Source of the DNA: Bacteroidales bacterium
GTDB taxonomy: Bacteria; Bacteroidota; Bacteroidia; Bacteroidales; UBA7960
NCBI GenBank assembly: GCA_007132585.1
Contig: SLOJ01000221.1
Span: forward strand, 1 to 32,576
Direction of reading: 5' to 3'
DNA: 32,576 nt
Shown here: piece by piece, positions 1 through 31,245 of the stretch
How the letters are laid out: every line of letters begins with the position of its first letter
Position numbering within the stretch: position 1 is the first letter of the stretch
The notes under the pieces: generated by a model
The model's database searches: none
The model's input: the letters and a program-made list of their open reading frames with translations, nothing else
Told to the model about the DNA's origin: nothing
Translations under genes and position numbers: made by a program

Positions 1-2042
1 AGTAATTCTGAAACCAGTTTTCGGGTAGTAACAGGCTTTGCAATATATCCATCAAAACCCTCTTTCATGTATTTTTCTTTGTCACCTGCCATTGCATTTG
101 CTGTAATAGCTATGATAGGGGGAGTTTTGTCATACTTCTTTTTTAACTCTTTCATGGCAGTAACCCCATCCATCACCGGCATCATAATATCCATAAGGAT
201 TACATCATACTTATCGGGGGTGAAAACTTCAATTGCCTCAATGCCATTTTTTGCTATATCAACGGAGCAATCTGCTGCCTCAAGCATAAGCGAGATAACC
301 TGGATGTTTACATTTTTATCATCAACCAATAATATTTTCAGTCCCAGTGAAACTTCTATATCATCATCTTCTTCTTCATCATCTTCGTTGATTATATCCA
401 GATCTTGTTTTTCCGGTTTAGAATCAAATGTAAACCAAAAAGTACTGCCCTTATCAGGTTTACTTTCCACACCTATTTCGCCGCCCATGTATGATATAAG
501 GTGCTTACAAATATAAAGCCCCAGTCCTGATCCACCCTCAGACCGGGTATTTTCTATTTGCTGGAATATATTAAAAAGTTTGTTTTGATCTTCTTTGCTT
601 ATTCCGGGTCCTGTATCTGATACGGATATCTTAATAGTATCAGGTTTGGATTTGTCAGCAATAATAACGTCAATGGTTATTTGCCCGTTTTCAGTAAACT
701 TCATTGCATTGTTGAGAAGGTTCATTATAACCTGCTCTATGCGAAGCTTATCAGATATTACTGTTTCAGGTATTTCAGAATCAATAATGACTTTGAGTTT
801 ATTATTCTTGTTTATAAGTTCCGGGTGATTCAGTTTTTTAATATTCTGTATTATGTTTTGCAAACTAAAAGGCTCGTAGCTCAAATGAATCTTGCCTGCC
901 TCAATTTTTGCGATATCCAGAATGTCGTTAATCAATCGTAACAATATTCGGGATGATTCATTAATAATTTGCAAATAATCAGCTTGCTGAGTGTCAAGTT
1001 TTGTATTGGCAAGTATTTCACTCATTCCTATTATACCGGTAACGGGTGTGCGTATCTCATGGCTCATATTAGCCAAAAATAAATTTTTTGATTCTGAAGC
1101 TTTCTGGGCAAGCTCAGCATCTTTCATAATAGCAAGTGCCTTTTTTTGCTCGCTGATATCTTCGCAGATAAATAAAACGTGTTTCTTATTCAGAAAAGTT
1201 ACCTCTTTGGCTGAAATATCAAAATACTTTATCTCCTTATTGCTGCAAATAAAAGGTGTATCATTGAATTTCTTATTCTCTTCTCCAATTCCCCTGTTAA
1301 TTAAATCTGTTATGGTATCTGTATCTGATAATAAAATATCTTTTAACCATAATGAAAGTAGTTGTGGTTTTTTGTATTTAAGAAGCTCACAAATGGATTC
1401 ATTTACATACGTAAAGCTTTTCTTTTCCGGGTCTGCGAGTATTATTCCATCACTTATTTTTTCACAAATTGACTGGAACAGTTGTTGCGATTCATTATTT
1501 TCTTTTTCCAGCTCAGATAGTTCTATTCTTGTTTTCCAGAGTTCGCGGGTAAGTTTTTTTTCGGTTTTTATGTCTTGTCCCTCAGGTATTCTTTCTTCTC
1601 TGATCTTCCTTGAAAACCCCGATGAAATCTCCGATGAGTGCATGTATTCGATAAACCATTTTTCGCGGAGTTTTTTCCAGAGCAGGGTAAGTTTAATATT
1701 TTGAGGTTGATGCAGGGGTGATTCTGATCTTTCATCATTGGTGATTAAATCTATGCTACCTGATAGTAAAGCACTGTCTGATGAAGTGACTTTTATTTTA
1801 CGGAATTTTTCATCAAACATCACCGGCCAGGGCAACAGACTTATATTATATTTTAACAGTGCCAGAATCTGTTCAGGTCCCGGAAAGCCGACTTTATTTA
1901 AACTGCCAATACCAACTGCATTTTCCGGGAAGAATTGTTTGAGTTGATCCAGATCTTTCTTTTCAATAAAATGTTTTAAAAATAAAACATACTGTTCTCC
2001 AACTTCACTTGCAATTGCATCCTGATCATAATATTCCTGCAT
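1..2042 (-). CDS. Hybrid sensor histidine kinase/response regulator: N-terminal SnoaL/NTF2-like region, PAS, HisKA, HATPase, REC; C-terminus cut by window edge
   Basis: Read from the reverse complement: starts MQEYYDQDAIASEVGEQYVLFLKHFIEKKDLDQLKQFFPENAVG; H-box NLFLANMSHEIRTPVTGIIGMSEIL; N box EQVIMNLLNNAMKFT; G boxes SVSDTGPGISKED and SEGGSGLGLYICKHL; REC KILLVDDKNVN...YDVILMDIMMPVMDG...IIAITANAM...GYIAKPV. Not in the ORF track because no stop lies inside the window. Confidence 0.93.
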   Translation of the reverse strand, partial: MQEYYDQDAIASEVGEQYVLFLKHFIEKKDLDQLKQFFPENAVGIGSLNKVGFPGPEQILALLKYNISLLPWPVMFDEKFRKIKVTSSDSALLSGSIDLITNDERSESPLHQPQNIKLTLLWKKLREKWFIEYMHSSEISSGFSRKIREERIPEGQDIKTEKKLTRELWKTRIELSELEKENNESQQLFQSICEKISDGIILADPEKKSFTYVNESICELLKYKKPQLLSLWLKDILLSDTDTITDLINRGIGEENKKFNDTPFICSNKEIKYFDISAKEVTFLNKKHVLFICEDISEQKKALAIMKDAELAQKASESKNLFLANMSHEIRTPVTGIIGMSEILANTKLDTQQADYLQIINESSRILLRLINDILDIAKIEAGKIHLSYEPFSLQNIIQNIKKLNHPELINKNNKLKVIIDSEIPETVISDKLRIEQVIMNLLNNAMKFTENGQITIDVIIADKSKPDTIKISVSDTGPGISKEDQNKLFNIFQQIENTRSEGGSGLGLYICKHLISYMGGEIGVESKPDKGSTFWFTFDSKPEKQDLDIINEDDEEEDDDIEVSLGLKILLVDDKNVNIQVISLMLEAADCSVDIAKNGIEAIEVFTPDKYDVILMDIMMPVMDGVTAMKELKKKYDKTPPIIAITANAMAGDKEKYMKEGFDGYIAKPVTTRKLVSEL

Positions 2043-23391: not shown

Positions 23392-24609
23392 ATGTTAAAA
23401 CGTATACAGTTGCACTGGCAAATATTAATTGCCCTAGTTTTAAGTATCATTTTTGGAATTACACTTCCAGCCTATGTAGAATATGTAAGCTGGATGGGGG
23501 ATGTTTTTTTACGCGCACTCCAGATGATTATAGTGCCACTGATTTTTTCTTCTATTGTTTCAGGTGTAACCGGAATCGGATCGGGGCAAAACCTGGGGCG
23601 AATGACATTAAAAACCATTGGTTACTACATGACCACCAGTTTGTTTGCTATTGTAACAGGTTTGTTACTTGTAAACATTATACGACCCGGGGTAGATGCA
23701 GATCTTGGGCTAAGTGCCAATGTGGAGGGATTAGCCGCCAGTGGTGATTCTTTCGGGCAAACACTTATAAAAATTATTCCCACCAATATTGTTGAATCCA
23801 TGGTAAGGGGTGATCTGCCCTCCATAATTTTCTTTGCTATATTTTTTGGCTTTTTCGCCACCCGCGTAATGCCACAGTATAGCGACTCTGTGGTAAACTT
23901 TTTTAATGGCATTTTTGAGATCATGATGAAGATCACTTTGTTCGTAATCAAATTCACTCCTTTGGGTGTATTTGGAATAGTCTCAGCAATTGTTGCTGAA
24001 AATGGAGATAATTTAATTGCCCTTTTCAGTAGTATGGGAATATATATGATAACTGTACTGGGCGCATTGTTTATACATGCATTTGTAACACTTCCATTGC
24101 TGATGAAGTTTATTGGTAAAGCCAACCCGGTAAAGCATGCCCGTAATATGTCGGTACCATTGTTAACAGCATTTTCAACATCCAGCAGTAGTGCTACACT
24201 GCCGCTTACCATCGAGTCGGTTGAGTTTAAAAGTGGGGTTTCCAATAAAACAACCAGTTTTGTTTTACCCCTTGGGGCTACCATTAATATGGATGGTACT
24301 GCGCTTTATCAATGCATTGCTGTGTTGTTTATTTCTCAGGCCTATGGTGTAGATCTGAGTATAGTACAGCAATTCATAGTAATATTAACCGCGTTGCTAG
24401 CTTCAATTGGTGCGGCTGGTATACCTATGGCCGGTCTGGTTATTATTTCAATAATTTTGTCGGCAGTAGGGCTGCCACTTGAAGGTGTGGGTCTTATTTT
24501 GGCGGTTGACCGGATCCTGGATATGGTAAGAACATCAGTTAATGTGTGGAGTGATAGCTGCGGTGCGGTAATTATAGCTAAAAGTGAAGGTGAATCAACG
24601 TATGTATGA
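23392..24609 (+). CDS. Dicarboxylate/amino acid:cation symporter (DAACS, GltP/DctA-type)
   Basis: 405 aa; VFLRALQMIIVPLIFSSIVSGV, AFSTSSSSATLPLTIESVE, VLPLGATINMDGTALYQ, DRILDMVRTSVNVWSDSCGAVIIAKSEGE. Confidence 0.96.
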   Translation: MLKRIQLHWQILIALVLSIIFGITLPAYVEYVSWMGDVFLRALQMIIVPLIFSSIVSGVTGIGSGQNLGRMTLKTIGYYMTTSLFAIVTGLLLVNIIRPGVDADLGLSANVEGLAASGDSFGQTLIKIIPTNIVESMVRGDLPSIIFFAIFFGFFATRVMPQYSDSVVNFFNGIFEIMMKITLFVIKFTPLGVFGIVSAIVAENGDNLIALFSSMGIYMITVLGALFIHAFVTLPLLMKFIGKANPVKHARNMSVPLLTAFSTSSSSATLPLTIESVEFKSGVSNKTTSFVLPLGATINMDGTALYQCIAVLFISQAYGVDLSIVQQFIVILTALLASIGAAGIPMAGLVIISIILSAVGLPLEGVGLILAVDRILDMVRTSVNVWSDSCGAVIIAKSEGESTYV

Positions 24610-24683: not shown

Positions 24684-25259
24684 TTAATCAAATGTAGAAG
24701 TTCCTGGTACTCCATCGATTATATAATCAATGGTAAGGATTTTCTGAGCTTCACCATCATAAGTTCCTGTTCCTTCTATGCTAACACCCTGGTGTGTTTG
24801 CTGAGGAATAGTAAGAACTGGGCCGTTGATAACACCAAGAACAATGATATTTTCAAAATATAGTTCATTGAATCTTAATTCGTTAAATTCAGGGCCCCTT
24901 GTTACGGAAACAGGATAAGGAGTGTACTGAGTTCCATCATTGTCAACATCAGTTACCTGATAAGTTTTAACTAATTTATCAGCCTGTACATAAACATTTC
25001 TCTGGCCAGTTTGGCCTTCTACGCTGTATGATGCAACATAGTGATCAACAAGTACATTGCTCCAGGCAGGGTTCCAGAGTACCTGTACATCTTCGATGTC
25101 TGCTCCGTCAACTGTTACGCCATTCAGCGGATCAAATTCATCTCCAAGATCAATCGTAACATCTGTTGTAGGAACCGTAAGGGTTACTTCAGTTTCACAA
25201 GCAGTAAAAATAAAGGCACCAATTACAAGTGTCATAGTAAATTTTAACCAATTTTTCAT
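24684..25259 (-). CDS. Putative surface lipoprotein, Ig-like/DUF5011-DUF5012-type N-terminal region
   Basis: 191 aa; lipobox IFTAC|ETEV; TVPTTDVTIDLGDEFDPLNGVTVDGADIEDVQV resembles the N-terminal pattern of Bacteroidota DUF5011/5012-type lipoproteins. Confidence 0.75.
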   Translation of the reverse strand: MKNWLKFTMTLVIGAFIFTACETEVTLTVPTTDVTIDLGDEFDPLNGVTVDGADIEDVQVLWNPAWSNVLVDHYVASYSVEGQTGQRNVYVQADKLVKTYQVTDVDNDGTQYTPYPVSVTRGPEFNELRFNELYFENIIVLGVINGPVLTIPQQTHQGVSIEGTGTYDGEAQKILTIDYIIDGVPGTSTFD

Positions 25260-25421: not shown

Positions 25422-25769
25422 ATGAGAAATTTTTTCGGCATTTTATTTTTAGTAGGCATAGTTGCCTTAACAGCTTGCGGGCCAAGCAAAAAAGAACAAG
25501 CTGCAGAGCAAGCCAGGCAGGATTCAATCGCTGCTGTTGAAGAAGAGGCACGTCAGGATTCAATTGCTGCTGCTGCTGCTAAAGCTGCTGCTGCTGCTGA
25601 AGCTGCTGCCGATGCTGCCGCTGCTGCTGCAAAACAAGAAGAAGAAGAAATCAGACCAAGCAGGAGGGGTGATACTGATGTTAAATCTGAAGAAGACAGA
25701 CCTGCCCGCCGCGGTGAACAAAAAGAAGATGAAGAAGAAGAAAGCAGGCCTGCCCGTCGTGGTAGCTGA
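25422..25769 (+). CDS. Small Ala-rich lipoprotein with repeated RPxRRG motifs
   Basis: 115 aa; lipobox VALTAC|GPSK; two ARQDSIAA repeats, long Ala-rich helix, then RPSRRGD, RPARRGE and RPARRGS separated by acidic linkers. Confidence 0.8.
   Translation: MRNFFGILFLVGIVALTACGPSKKEQAAEQARQDSIAAVEEEARQDSIAAAAAKAAAAAEAAADAAAAAAKQEEEEIRPSRRGDTDVKSEEDRPARRGEQKEDEEEESRPARRGS
25565..25630 (+). repeat. Imperfect (GCT)n trinucleotide tract coding for poly-Ala
   Basis: gctgctgctgctgctaaagctgctgctgctgctgaagctgctgcc... visible in the sequence. Confidence 0.85.
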
Positions 25770-25785
25770 TAGCTTTATTTATAAT

Positions 25786-25820
25786 AAAAAAAAAGGATGG
25801 TTTGATTACCATCCTTTTTT
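25786..25820. terminator. Bidirectional intrinsic terminator between lipoprotein and response regulator
   Basis: AAAAAAAAGGATGGT-TTGATT-ACCATCCTTTTTTT. Confidence 0.88.
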
Positions 25821-26188
25821 TATAAACTTATTTTCTTTAGTGTTTCTTTCAGCTTATCCGGTGTTACAGGTTTACTTATAAATCCATTGAAACCATATGT
25901 ATCAAGATTCACTGCATAATCTGCAGGATCATGCGCTGTAATTGCTATTACCGGAGTGTTTCTCTTTTGTATATCAGTTAGTTTTTTCCGAATATACACA
26001 GTGGTTTCAAGTCCGTTTTTTACCGGCATTTCTATATCCATCAAAATAAACTTGTAGTCATTCTTTTCAAGCTTATCTATGGCGATGTCTCCATTAGATG
26101 CTTCATCATAGGTATAACCAAGCGACTTTAAAACCAGTCCGATCTGTACTCTGCTTGTGAATAAATCATCTGCCACTAATACTTTCAT
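25820..26188 (-). CDS. Stand-alone CheY-like response regulator (REC domain only)
   Basis: 122 aa; VLVADDLFTSR, FILMDIEMPVKNG, VIAITAHD, GFISKPVTPDKL: conserved DD/D/T/K residues, no output domain. Confidence 0.93.
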   Translation of the reverse strand: MKVLVADDLFTSRVQIGLVLKSLGYTYDEASNGDIAIDKLEKNDYKFILMDIEMPVKNGLETTVYIRKKLTDIQKRNTPVIAITAHDPADYAVNLDTYGFNGFISKPVTPDKLKETLKKISL

Positions 26189-26396
26189 CTTATTCCATTT
26201 CCGTTTAACATGGTTGCATCTAGACTGATAATCTGAAATGCTTTTTCATTTCTGCAAAGTTAAATATTTAGCAGAGTAAATTACATATGAACTCAATATG
26301 ATATACGATGTAAAGGTATTTAAAAAAAAGGAAACCTGTTATTTTTTAGCTTGAATATTTTTAAGAGAAACCCTGAAGTTTTACGAAATAAATTCA

Positions 26397-26408
26397 CGTA
26401 GTTCTACG
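26397..26408. promoter_or_regulatory. Inverted repeat CGTAG-TT-CTACG in divergent intergenic region
   Basis: Perfect 5+5 inverted repeat with 2-nt spacer. Confidence 0.35.
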
Positions 26409-26466
26409 GTTTTTAATGGATTCACGCCTTTTTATTTTTATCATGAATTTCAGGATGATTTAAAAA

Positions 26467-26483
26467 CGTAAATCATTTTTACG
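26467..26483. promoter_or_regulatory. Inverted repeat CGTAAA-TCATT-TTTACG in divergent intergenic region
   Basis: Perfect 6+6 inverted repeat with 5-nt spacer, ~43 nt before ATG 26526. Confidence 0.35.
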
Positions 26484-26525
26484 ATGTTTTAATCTGTTTT
26501 TATTTAAAAAACCAAAATAACAGGG

Positions 26526-28238
26526 ATGAGTTTTACCAACAACCAGCACAAAACAACTAAAACTTACGGCGATAAAAGATTGCAGGAAACCTTTTCAGGC
26601 ATTGATTTTGACTTAAAACACCTTAAGCAATTTTCATTTGATTGTTTTTTTAAAATTAATCATACCCTTAAAACAAACAGAAAGAAAGCCGAAGAATTGA
26701 TTTTAGATGTTTTGAATATTTATCAGCTCATAAGGGAAACAGGTAACTCTGGCTCGCTTAAAAAAATTCAGGAAAATATAGCAATGGTCAGGGATGGTTT
26801 TTCAGGACTGGAAACAGAAATTGAAGATACAATTCAAACGCTTGATAATGTTCAAAAGGATGTGGCCATTATGTATTCACCTTTCCGGTTTATAACACAA
26901 AACATGTCTAAACTGGATGAACTTTTATCAGAAATAAAGCTTACAAATATTTTCAAAGACCGCAGCTCTAAAAGTTTTACTGAAGATGAGGCATTAAAGA
27001 TTCATTCTGTAATTCAAAAGGTTAAGCATAGCAGTCCGGTATTTGAAGAAAACATTTATAACATTGAGCAACATTTAGGAAATATAAATGCGGAATTGAC
27101 TCAACTTAAAAACTTTTTTGCCGAAGAGTTGCCTGAAACCTTGAATCAGCTTGATGAATTTATCAATTCTGTTTCAATAAGAAACAAACAAATCTCAAGA
27201 AAACAGGAAGATACAGAGGCCCAGGTGATGGCACTCAGGAGCCTGGTGGTTCGTATTGTTGAAAATCTTGAATACAGAAACCTTATCAATACACGCCTGA
27301 ATCACATTCAGGAAACACAAAAGATGGTGGTGTACGATCTTTATCACTCAAGTGTAAAAGGTGCTCAGAACCTCGGGAATACATTGTACCATGAAATTGC
27401 TAAAATTAATAATACCCAAACAGAGCGTCTTCTTTTTACCAACAAAGAGTTTAAGGATTCTGTAAATCATATCTCACGGATTATTTTCCAGGCAGGGGAG
27501 AAAATGGAAATGATAATAAAACCCTTGAATGAAAACGATGATCAGCAACCCATGAATTCAGTTTTTGGAAAATATGGTATTGAATTTGATAAGTTTCTTG
27601 AAAAAAATTCCTGCATGGTCGATAAATACCATCGCATTACAAAGGATATGGCGCTCATATACAATATATTCAATGAGCTGTTTATTAAATTCAAAGAACT
27701 TGAACGGATGGAAAATTCAGTTGAGCAGAAAGTAATAGACCGAATTAGCTACGGTAATCTGCTTATTAGTGAAGATGAAAAAACAGCAACCCTTGCACAG
27801 CAGATACTTAAATGTTATGCCGATAATCATATTGAAAAACATAAACTCTACACTTTATTTAATGAATCTATCCAGGTTCTTAAAGAATTTATTGAAAAAA
27901 GATCCATAGGGTTATTTGGTAAAAAAGGGCTTGATTTTACAAGAATAAAACTGGAAGAATTAATTAAAGATTACAACGGATTACAACTTAAACTCAGGGA
28001 AGAAGAAAGCCTGAAAAGTGATGTGTTTTCAAAAAATGCAGAATTTGTTGCTACTTGTAAAACCGAAGCCGGGAAACTTAGCAGGTATAATTTTCCGGAA
28101 AATATTCTTACTAATGTAATTGAAAGGTTTGATAACCTCAATATGATTGTAAAAAAAGCCAAACCAAAAATGTTGCAGAGTAATTTACAGGAGTCGATGG
28201 AGAATGAAGCTGCGAATATTTCATTTACAGCAAGATAA
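26526..28238 (+). CDS. Uncharacterised 570-aa helical/coiled-coil protein, probable signalling scaffold or receptor-like protein
   Basis: Long open frame, no signal peptide or TM seen, almost entirely heptad-like helical; central LRSLVVRIVENLEYRNLINTRLNHIQ resembles the [LQ-x-x-D-x-x-R-Q-R-x-x-H] pattern seen in chemotaxis-associated proteins; followed by STAS and Hpt genes. Confidence 0.8.
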   Translation: MSFTNNQHKTTKTYGDKRLQETFSGIDFDLKHLKQFSFDCFFKINHTLKTNRKKAEELILDVLNIYQLIRETGNSGSLKKIQENIAMVRDGFSGLETEIEDTIQTLDNVQKDVAIMYSPFRFITQNMSKLDELLSEIKLTNIFKDRSSKSFTEDEALKIHSVIQKVKHSSPVFEENIYNIEQHLGNINAELTQLKNFFAEELPETLNQLDEFINSVSIRNKQISRKQEDTEAQVMALRSLVVRIVENLEYRNLINTRLNHIQETQKMVVYDLYHSSVKGAQNLGNTLYHEIAKINNTQTERLLFTNKEFKDSVNHISRIIFQAGEKMEMIIKPLNENDDQQPMNSVFGKYGIEFDKFLEKNSCMVDKYHRITKDMALIYNIFNELFIKFKELERMENSVEQKVIDRISYGNLLISEDEKTATLAQQILKCYADNHIEKHKLYTLFNESIQVLKEFIEKRSIGLFGKKGLDFTRIKLEELIKDYNGLQLKLREEESLKSDVFSKNAEFVATCKTEAGKLSRYNFPENILTNVIERFDNLNMIVKKAKPKMLQSNLQESMENEAANISFTAR

Positions 28239-28266
28239 TGAGAATTTGTTTACGAAAATTTTTGAT

Positions 28267-28581
28267 ATGCAAAGTTTAAAGATAAGTTTAATCGAAAAAA
28301 AAAGCCCCGATGGCATGTGTCTTCAAATAATTTTTGAAGGTATGCTTACTTTGCAGAATGCTGAACAAATTAAAGAAAAAATAACAAAGGCATCCGGTGA
28401 ATTCGACTCATTTGATTTTATAACGCAGCAGGTAACTGCTATTGATGTGTCATTTTTGAAAATCATTAAATCTTTTAAAGATTTCCTTGAGAAACAGGGG
28501 AAAAAAGTAAATGTAAAACTGGATTTACCTTTCGATTCAGAAAGGTTTTTATGCAATGCCGGAATCATTTTCCCGTTATAA
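28267..28581 (+). CDS. STAS-domain protein
   Basis: ~104 aa from ATG 28267 (MQSLKISLIEKKSPDGMCLQIIFEGMLTLQNAEQIKEKI...VTAIDVSFLKIIKSFKDFLEKQGKKVNVKLDLPFDSERFLCNAGI); STAS-like beta-alpha pattern with IDxSxLxII core. The upstream start at 28204 would overlap the previous gene. Confidence 0.75.
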   Translation: MQSLKISLIEKKSPDGMCLQIIFEGMLTLQNAEQIKEKITKASGEFDSFDFITQQVTAIDVSFLKIIKSFKDFLEKQGKKVNVKLDLPFDSERFLCNAGIIFPL

Positions 28582-28625
28582 TTATTAATTTTATGGTTTA
28601 TAATTTATTCCATTCAAAAGTTGGT

Positions 28626-28994
28626 ATGAAATCATATTCAGATATAGAGATGCTTGATCATAACATGTTAGAGATGCTGAACTCCTGCGCTGATGGGAAT
28701 GAAGAACTGATCGATGAAATATTAGATTCTTTTTCACCTGAAGCGGATGAATTGCTGGAATCCATCAAAGAATCGGTTAAAAAAGATGATATGGAGTTGC
28801 TGAGAAAATCATCACATGCACTTGCAGGTATTTGTGGATCTGTTGGTGCAAGTCGCCTGCAGCAAATAGCCACTGATATTGAAAATGCTGTTAAAACCGG
28901 AAACAATCAAACTGCCCTGGAAACTACTGCAGAGCTATATCCCAACTATACCCTTCTTATAAAAGAAATTGCAAAATACCAGGAATCTAAATAA
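28626..28994 (+). CDS. Hpt-domain phosphotransfer protein
   Basis: MKSYSDIEMLDHNMLEMLNSCADGNEELIDEILDSFSPEADELLESIKESVKKDDMELLRKSSHALAGICGSVGASRLQQIATDIE: the SSHALAGICGSVGA segment fits the Hpt HAxKGxxxxxGA motif. The ATG at 28626 is preferred over the track start. Confidence 0.9.
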   Translation: MKSYSDIEMLDHNMLEMLNSCADGNEELIDEILDSFSPEADELLESIKESVKKDDMELLRKSSHALAGICGSVGASRLQQIATDIENAVKTGNNQTALETTAELYPNYTLLIKEIAKYQESK

Positions 28995-29016: not shown

Positions 29017-29775
29017 TCATAAAAACGGATGAAAATCACGGGTCAGATTTATATATTCTGGAGTAAATTTGTGTCTTTTTTCTGTTTCTATACATACAGT
29101 CTTTCCCTTTACTTTCTGCTGATACTTTTTTGAGTAGATTGTAATAATTCTCCCGGGCGGGTGAGCGGTCGAAGGTTTTATAATTAGCCTTTCATTGGGA
29201 AAGAGATTATTCTCTGAAGCTTTTTTATCGTTTACTTCCATCATAACATATGGGAAAATAACAATCAGTTTTCCTTTCGTATCCAAAAGTCTTTCTGAAT
29301 GAAAAAAAAGCTCATTAAAACTGAGTGTTTCGGTATGTCGGGCACGGGTCCGATCATGATTTGAACTTTTCATGCCGTTTTCAAAGAATGGAGGATTACA
29401 CACAATTAAATCATATGTAATGTTTTCAGTTGGATAGAATTCCTGAACGGGTCTGTTATAAACACTAAACAGTTGTGGCCACGGGCTTTCTGTAAAGTTT
29501 TGCGCTGCCTGCTCTGCTGCACCTTTATCAATTTCAATGGCGTGAATTGAAGCCATGGTTTTTTGGGCTATCATAAGAGAGATGAGTCCGCAACCGGTTC
29601 CTATATCCAATACCCGTTTTGCCTTGAGGCCAGATGCAAAAGCTCCCAGCAATACACCATCTGTGCCTATTTTCATAGCACTTCGGCTGTCAGTCAAGGA
29701 GAACTTTTTAAACTTAAATTGTCCTTTCTTTGCGGAGGGTTTATTCTTCAGGGTTTTCACTGAGGTAAATATCAA
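29017..29775 (-). CDS. tRNA1(Val) (adenine(37)-N6)-methyltransferase-like (TrmN6/YfiC family)
   Basis: 252 aa; VLDIGTGCGLISLMIAQK SAM-binding motif, YDLIVCNPPFFENGMKSSNHDRTRARHTETLSFNELF typical of this family. Confidence 0.92.
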   Translation of the reverse strand: MIFTSVKTLKNKPSAKKGQFKFKKFSLTDSRSAMKIGTDGVLLGAFASGLKAKRVLDIGTGCGLISLMIAQKTMASIHAIEIDKGAAEQAAQNFTESPWPQLFSVYNRPVQEFYPTENITYDLIVCNPPFFENGMKSSNHDRTRARHTETLSFNELFFHSERLLDTKGKLIVIFPYVMMEVNDKKASENNLFPNERLIIKPSTAHPPGRIITIYSKKYQQKVKGKTVCIETEKRHKFTPEYINLTRDFHPFL

Positions 29776-30286
29776 TTAATCCTTCCGGTGCATCAATAAA
29801 GATAATCCTGTTTTTTTTGTCAACTTTCTCTATAAAATCATCCTTCACAGGAATAAGGATATCTTTATCCATAAACCGGATCTCGAAAAGTGGATTCCCC
29901 GGATAGTCAAGGACTCTGGTTACTTTACCAATATTGCCTTTTTCCTTGTCGTTGACTTCAAACCCTTCTATTTCGTGAAAGTAGAAAGCATTACCATCGA
30001 GTTGAGGCAGGAGATCCAGGGGCAGAAAAAGTTCGCAACCCGATATTGACAACGCATCTTCTTCATTGTCAATATCGTGAAATTTAATTGTCAGCTGATT
30101 GGTTTTATTGCGCAATTCTGTACGTTCAGCAAAAAAAGGTACCAGCTTTCCCCGTATGTCAATAAAAACAGATTCCAGGGTTTTATAGTATTCAGGATCG
30201 TCAGCGTCAATATAAATAACAACTTCACCTTTGTATCCAAGGGGCTTGATGATTTTCCCTAGGTAAAAACATTTTTCTTTTTGCAT
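29741..30286 (-). CDS. rimM: Ribosome maturation factor RimM
   Basis: CFYLGKIIKPLGYKGEVVIYIDADDPEYY...; PRC-barrel region FYFHEIEGFEVNDKEKGNIGKVTRVLDYPGNPLFEI...ILIPVKDDFIEKVD; directly downstream of rpsP. Start 30286 (MQKEKC) or 30298 both possible. Confidence 0.94.
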   Translation of the reverse strand: MQKEKCFYLGKIIKPLGYKGEVVIYIDADDPEYYKTLESVFIDIRGKLVPFFAERTELRNKTNQLTIKFHDIDNEEDALSISGCELFLPLDLLPQLDGNAFYFHEIEGFEVNDKEKGNIGKVTRVLDYPGNPLFEIRFMDKDILIPVKDDFIEKVDKKNRIIFIDAPEGLIDIYLSENPEE

Positions 30287-30314
30287 GCTAAAAGACAATT
30301 GGTCTATATGTAAA

Positions 30315-30372: not shown

Positions 30373-31245
30373 CTATTCTTCTTTCTTATCTTCAGATTCC
30401 TTATCAGCCTTGGCATCTTCAGTGCTTTCCGGCTTCTTTGCGGAAGTATCCTTTTCAGTTTTTTCGGTCTTCTTTTCAGGAGAATCCTTTTCAGTTTTTT
30501 CTTCCTTTGCCTTAGGTGCATCCTTTTCAGCTTTTTTATCTTCAGGTGCATCCTTTTCAGCTTTTTCTTCCTTCTGCTCAGGTGCATCTTCTTCCGCTTT
30601 TTCAGCTTTCGCTGCAGTTACATCCTGTTTGGTGCTCTCCTTCTTTTCAGCAGCAGGTTTCTCTGTTGCGGCTTCTTTTGGAGTTGATTCTTCTTTAGGA
30701 GCTTCTTCTTTAGGAGCTGCTTCTTTAGGAGCTTCTTCTTCTATAACTTCTTCAGTGCTTTCCTCAGCTTTTTCTTCCTGTACTTCGGCAGCTTTCTTTT
30801 TAGCCAGAGCTTCAGCACGAGCTTCATTAACTTTCCGTTCATCTTCCAGGCGCTTTTTCTTCAACTCTTTTTCTGAGAGCTCAGCGTCTTTGGTAATCTG
30901 CTCAACCTTAGCGGTTTTATCTTTCAGCCAGGTCTGGAATTTTTCCTTTGCCTCTTCTTCTGAATGAGCTCCTTTTTTAACACCTCTTAAAAGGTGGTCC
31001 ATCATCAAAACTCCTTCTCTGGATAGAATAAAGCGGGCTGTTTCAGTGGGTTGCGCACCTACCTGTACCCAGTAAAGTGCACGATCAAAATCGATGTTAA
31101 TGGTAGCTGGATCTGTTGTTGGATCATAAGTGCCAAGTCTTTCAATAAACTTTCCGTCACGTGGTGCACGACCATCCGCAATTACCAAATGATAAAAAGG
31201 TTGTCCCTTTTTACCTTTTCTCTGTAGTCTGATTCTTGCTGGCAT
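30373..31245 (-). CDS. rpsP: 30S ribosomal protein S16 with long Lys/Glu/Ala-rich C-terminal extension
   Basis: 290 aa; [42 protein letters not shown] is canonical S16; residues after ~85 form a long charged extension with repeats ([19 protein letters not shown]). Confidence 0.96.
30475..30740 (-). repeat. Imperfect coding repeats in the rpsP 3' region
   Basis: Repeated gcatccttttcagctttttcttcc-like units and ttctttaggagcttcttctttaggagctgcttctttaggagc units visible on the plus strand. Confidence 0.7.

Follow-up and report, generated by a model that had tools for sequence, protein, structure and literature searches.

A chemoreceptor-related helical protein retained with STAS, Hpt, and receiver genes at a reduced chemosensory locus in Bacteroidales

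Chemosensory operons with a lone STAS gene have been described before: a lone STAS and hypothetical genes appear in the published gene-order key for the F classes of Che operons (PMC9239204). In Sinorhizobium and Agrobacterium, CheS, a STAS protein, and CheT, a CheZ-like protein with a DxxxQ motif, act on two CheYs (PMC12654446), and DxxxQ is the active-site pattern of CheZ (PMC7750401). The locus described here lies in a stretch of 32,576 nucleotides (the window) from a Bacteroidales bacterium, contig SLOJ01000221.1. Like the Che operons with a lone STAS, relatives of this bacterium carry STAS-CheY-CheA-CheW-MCP together with CheR, CheD, and CheB in one operon; they differ by a long helical protein, here termed HEL, and by an extra Hpt-hybrid kinase pair, while the window differs in having no CheA, CheW, MCP, or CheY. 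The nearest functional parallel to HEL-STAS-CheY-CheY, likened by description, is CheS/CheT, which also combines a lone STAS with a helical DxxxQ protein, although HEL is about 600 aa long with MCP-like hairpins and its window copy has no DxxxQ. Two features of CheA-linked HELs recall CheZ, the motif F/Y-x-D-hydrophobic-x-x-Q and a conserved C-terminal tail with Phe as its last residue, but HEL is almost three times longer, has MCP-like hairpins, and shows no profile similarity to CheZ, and the window copy possesses neither motif nor tail.

The four open reading frames named in a preliminary description of this DNA (REC, HEL, STAS, and Hpt) are present where that description placed them. REC (25820-26188, minus strand) is a stand-alone receiver gene (PF00072, 4.1e-23) whose phospho-acceptor Asp is conserved by alignment in MDIEMP, and it is divergent from HEL-STAS-Hpt here, as it is from HEL in CheA-bearing relatives. 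HEL (26526-28238, plus strand) encodes the 570-aa cytoplasmic helical protein. It is followed on the same strand by the STAS gene (28267-28581), which encodes a conserved D-V-S-F, and by a free Hpt gene (28626-28994; PF01627, 1.6e-12) with its conserved phospho-acceptor His in SSHALAG, so that the alignments place both phospho-acceptors, His and Asp, at the locus. The REC and Hpt identities given earlier thus stand on good family matches. Alignment with homologues suggests the STAS and Hpt starts given here, while the longest open reading frames begin farther upstream, at 28204 and 28551, respectively. No histidine kinase lies beside the cluster, in agreement with the first reading of the sequence; a hybrid kinase of PAS-HisKA-HATPase-REC composition, truncated by the contig edge, lies at 3-2042 (minus strand).

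STAS by itself is sub-threshold in Pfam (0.013), but when 13 homologues are combined into a profile, a search of the PDB picks out an anti-sigma-B factor antagonist (6m36, 2.7e-4), and for this reason the assignment holds. The gene is directly 3' of HEL, a position conserved in CheA operons, and the D-x-[ST] position keeps a Ser or Thr in nearly all homologues. Both the profile match and this conserved residue would suit a partner-switching module in which STAS is phosphorylated on the Ser/Thr and HEL is the regulated partner, independent of the phosphorelay. We regard such a module as unlikely, as no RsbW-type serine kinase or PP2C phosphatase gene was recognized beside STAS, and STAS was not seen in some of the HEL-Hpt-kinase loci (L034, L037, L043, and L044).

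Comparison with sister species in the genus points to the origin of this gene set. Between the same flanking genes, the full operon reads HEL-STAS-CheY-CheY-CheA-CheW-MCP-Hpt-hybrid kinase-CheR-kinase-CheD-CheB. In three genomes (G003, G006, and G008), HEL is followed by STAS, two CheYs, CheA, and then CheW and an MCP, with CheA consisting of Hpt, dimerization, ATPase, and CheW domains as read on the G006 copies. G006 and G008 continue through Hpt, the hybrid kinase, CheR, a second kinase, CheD, and CheB into methyltransferase-rimM-rpsP, and G003 has the same operon start. On the left, intact and reduced loci share a dicarboxylate-type symporter gene whose function was read from sequence (23392-24609, plus strand in the window), the gene at 24684-25259, a small lipoprotein-like gene, and the divergent REC. 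On the right, the anchor of both forms is a small-domain methyltransferase gene (29017-29775, minus strand), followed by rimM (29741-30298) and rpsP (30373-31245, minus strand), both named from sequence. The S16 ribosomal protein encoded by the rpsP-like gene is extended at its C-terminus by a long stretch rich in Lys and Glu, and relatives also have long forms. The two small lipoprotein-like genes near REC (24684-25259, minus; 25422-25769, plus) are conserved in synteny and have no Pfam matches; one of them contains repeated PARRG-like stretches.

At this site the window and four sister species (G002, G004, G009, and G010) possess only HEL-STAS-Hpt, while G007 possesses HEL-Hpt-hybrid kinase. 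Conservation in four sister species, which the preliminary description had proposed as a check, indicates that the arrangement is more than chance. As flanks and gene order are shared with the full operon, and HEL, STAS, and Hpt have homologues in the intact loci (for the window Hpt, the homologue is the one located after the MCP), the window locus represents a deletion form and G007 a different one. Read from gene order, the cluster is the remnant of a chemosensory operon from which two blocks have evidently been deleted, CheY-CheY-CheA-CheW-MCP and hybrid kinase-CheR-kinase-CheD-CheB. The earlier suggestion of a link to chemotaxis was therefore borne out, by CheA-linked orthologues and by a full operon at the same locus, but the accompanying proposal of an undescribed, kinase-less phosphorelay was not, as related genomes show a reduced chemosensory operon. 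It could still be argued that REC, Hpt, STAS, and HEL co-evolved as the parts of a dedicated stand-alone phosphorelay, since the four genes occur together in the sisters without CheA, are all under purifying selection, and conserve their phospho-sites; with gene order, flanks, and profiles all forming a subset of the chemosensory operon, this account of their origin is contradicted and we consider it very improbable. The locus is not a categorically new signaling system.

Searches across whole genomes give the same picture. Among the 12 genomes of the genus that were searched, CheW-domain and MCP genes are present in G001, G003, G005, G006, G008, and G011 and absent from G000 (the window's own genome), G002, G004, G007, G009, and G010, and the operon CheB (frames of 360-395 aa) shows the same split. 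A CheA kinase with a CheW coupling domain was not found in G000 or in the five other reduced-locus genomes, and G000 yielded no PF00015 match to indicate an MCP receptor. With the G007 copy of the operon hybrid kinase as query, relatives of 48-60% identity were found in the intact genomes, but in G000, G002, G004, G009, and G010 this kinase is missing and generic hybrid kinases come up as top matches. The assemblies behind these results are MAG-like and fragmented; completeness is 84% for G000, whose locus is contiguous, and 90-100% for four of the five other reduced-locus genomes. The window kinase at 3-2042 was rejected as the lost operon kinase, as it lacks an N-terminal REC and is 37% identical over part of the query. 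This kinase could still serve as a phosphodonor for Hpt; G000 also keeps 44 other kinase matches. No flagellar FlhA was found in the 12 genomes, and all 12 contain a gldL gene, which makes gliding or type 9 secretion a more likely output than flagella.

Every one of the 12 genomes of the genus has HEL; outside the genus it occurs in two more genera of the same family and, as a weak match, in one additional family of the order. Beyond the order, in a search of the phylum, it again occurs beside CheY and CheA, mostly with STAS between. On its own it has no relative in Pfam, NCBIfam, or the PDB. The family is nevertheless connected to chemoreceptors through its distant members: three distant HELs match the MCP signaling domain PF00015 (2e-11 to 2e-15), and a profile of distant HELs (A5) matches the signaling hairpin of solved MCPs such as T. 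maritima 2CH7 (best 6e-15). The Bacteroidales HEL profile (A1) matches A5 over its full length (hhalign 99.7%, 1.8e-25), so that homology to MCPsignal extends to the Bacteroidales members by way of these orthologues. The window protein itself has no MCPsignal match: the families listed for the 21 A1 members do not include PF00015, which Bacteroidales-type HELs in general no longer match. HEL differs from MCPs in that two hairpin-like regions surround a CheZ-like segment and no sensor domain is seen. By profile comparison, HEL is, for the family, established as a cytoplasmic, chemoreceptor-derived accessory protein, which in the window would be an accessory of the lost CheA array; this agrees with the earlier guess of a receptor or scaffold. 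Its description as almost all-helical is likewise borne out by an AlphaFold2 model, of moderate confidence (pLDDT 75.7, pTM 0.52). Several other candidate relationships were rejected. PDB sequence searches with the window HEL and with the Bacteroidales profile gave chance coiled coils only, and Foldseek with two AlphaFold2 models gave generic long helices or coiled coils and no usable match. Pfam DUF3907 (0.0022, below its cut-off) was matched by one of 21 members. A plasmid search with a distant HEL gave weak matches, mostly to the MCP hairpin. No description of HEL was found in the open-access literature, which is weak evidence of novelty, and this chemoreceptor-derived accessory protein is apparently undescribed.

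Between the two MCP hairpin-tip-like regions, distant HELs carry a segment such as IQFHDITRQQMEHV, and their C-terminus reads YTMxSERxIH...DNxELF. In those encoded in HEL-(STAS)-CheY-CheA operons, the HDxxRQ segment, which fits the CheZ pattern, and the C-terminal tail are both conserved. CheA-linked HELs of the Bacteroidales keep LQYHDIIRQKMxHIQ and mostly end in YTMKSERIIH...GNDVEFF. The window copy, in contrast, has a degenerate YRNLINTRL (HEL residues 241-270, 27246-27335, plus strand) with N and T in place of D and Q, and its C-terminal tail is also gone. The preliminary description had likened VVRIVENLEYRNLINTRLNHIQ to an L-Q-x-x-D-x-x-R-Q-type chemotaxis motif; the comparison was apt for the CheA-linked orthologues, which read IITNLQYHDIIRQKMxHIQ at this position, but the window copy itself lacks the D and Q. 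D and Q are both kept in 13 of 13 CheA-linked HELs, most of them linked to CheA on the contig (the contigs of L028 and L033 end early, and their genomes have CheA), versus none of 11 others, in which CheA is absent from the locus (paralogues) or from the genome. The raw count test for this association (4e-7) ignores relatedness and is not to stand alone. When the columns of motif and tail are left out of the alignment and L035 is excluded, the resulting tree requires four changes, at least three of them on starred branches (three to four separate losses), always in the same direction; with only three independent pairs on starred branches, a sign test cannot reach significance. On these alignments, the phosphatase-like motif has been lost from HEL together with the CheA array. 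The excluded L035 (G029:C289, 1-3738) matches a G004 contig along its entire length at 99.97% identity and is thus probably a contaminating contig in one assembly. In G026 (L036/L044) and G023 (L039/L043), HEL occurs twice: the copy that belongs to a CheA operon has the motif, and the copy that sits in a HEL-Hpt-hybrid kinase set, next to rimM in G026, lacks it.

The role of the motif in CheA-linked HELs can be read in two ways. F/Y-H-D-x-x-x-Q agrees with the CheZ active site (E. coli FQDLTGQ) at F/Y, D, the hydrophobic residue, and Q. CheT, the DxxxQ protein of rhizobia, accompanies the STAS protein CheS (PMC12654446), and Pfam CheZ (PF04344) had no match in 21 genomes, namely the window's own and 20 relatives. 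These points favor a phosphatase site. Against them, HEL was rejected as a CheZ homologue, since hhalign of CheA-linked HELs gave a probability of 0.1; the resemblance is at the motif level, and a phosphatase activity rests on a short motif. In addition, HEL conserves a His three residues after RQK (RQKMxH) that E. coli CheZ lacks. HEL could accordingly be a scaffold in every lineage, with D-x-x-x-Q serving CheA or CheY as a docking or structural site, a reading we consider quite possible but the less probable one.

What remains of the locus is under constraint. With identity computed in windows of 30 residues, HEL residues 391-450 (27696-27875, plus strand), the second hairpin-tip region, are the best-conserved part of the protein (0.73-0.79 within and 0.66-0.72 across clades) and align with the MCP tip of L050/L051. 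The first hairpin-tip region, residues 121-180 (26886-27065, plus strand), is kept in copies with and without CheA, with identities of 0.64-0.74 within the no-CheA clade, 0.76-0.83 within the CheA-linked clade, and 0.50-0.64 between them. The motif window (residues 241-270), in contrast, has an identity of 0.89 among CheA-linked copies but of 0.58 among no-CheA copies, and of 0.34 across clades. HEL dN/dS is 0.10-0.15 among the no-CheA sisters and 0.20 against the window where computable; for REC, three no-CheA sisters show 79-89% identity and dN/dS of 0.04-0.10, and STAS and Hpt are also constrained, all these values being rough with synonymous sites near saturation. HEL has lost its former motif and tail and diverges fast (39% identity, against about 80-88% for the symporter and REC), as might be expected if the remaining genes were non-functional debris on the way to loss. 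We find this highly unlikely, because dN/dS between sisters is 0.10-0.20, the reading frames run full length in five species, and the hairpin regions keep 0.64-0.79 identity. Retention of the hairpins together with low dN/dS argues that HEL is kept for a function in which the hairpins are required and CheY and CheA are not.

Overall, we think it likely that the window cluster is a deletion remnant of a chemosensory operon in which HEL, a former array accessory, is now maintained as a scaffold with STAS and the phosphorelay. The evolutionary part of this explanation is well supported, and the biochemical part we infer. In the intact form, HEL would most likely dock near the CheA array through its two hairpins and dephosphorylate CheY through the CheZ-like D-x-x-x-Q segment, with the C-terminal tail and STAS assisting as CheT and CheS do on two CheYs in rhizobia. 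The CheA and CheY blocks would then have been lost, and HEL, STAS, and Hpt kept. With D, Q, and the tail gone in the window lineage, HEL is probably not a phosphatase there, and most likely persists as a scaffold joining STAS to an Hpt/REC phosphorelay whose phosphate may come from a subset of the numerous hybrid kinases encoded at other loci. Linkage and constraint are the basis for supposing that REC, Hpt, and STAS would act together after the loss. A more general view, which we offer tentatively and judge rather doubtful, is that HEL is a scaffold with a former CheZ-like segment between its hairpins that has repeatedly outlived the CheA array by shedding this segment, leaving a CheA-independent HEL-STAS-Hpt-REC pathway that might act on gliding or type 9 secretion.

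Within this one genus, the same chromosomal site carries either a full chemosensory operon or a reduced version of it, and the family tree records three to four separate losses. In HEL, DxxxQ and the tail are seen to depend on CheA/CheY, whereas the two hairpins are independent of them. HEL may be regarded as a candidate CheY phosphatase for Bacteroidota without a recognized CheZ, and the window cluster as an orphan module whose present function lends itself to direct testing. In distant relatives, a metallo-beta-lactamase-fold protein adjoins CheR in the che operon (L049, 5286-5897, minus strand; L091, 8088-8741, plus strand).
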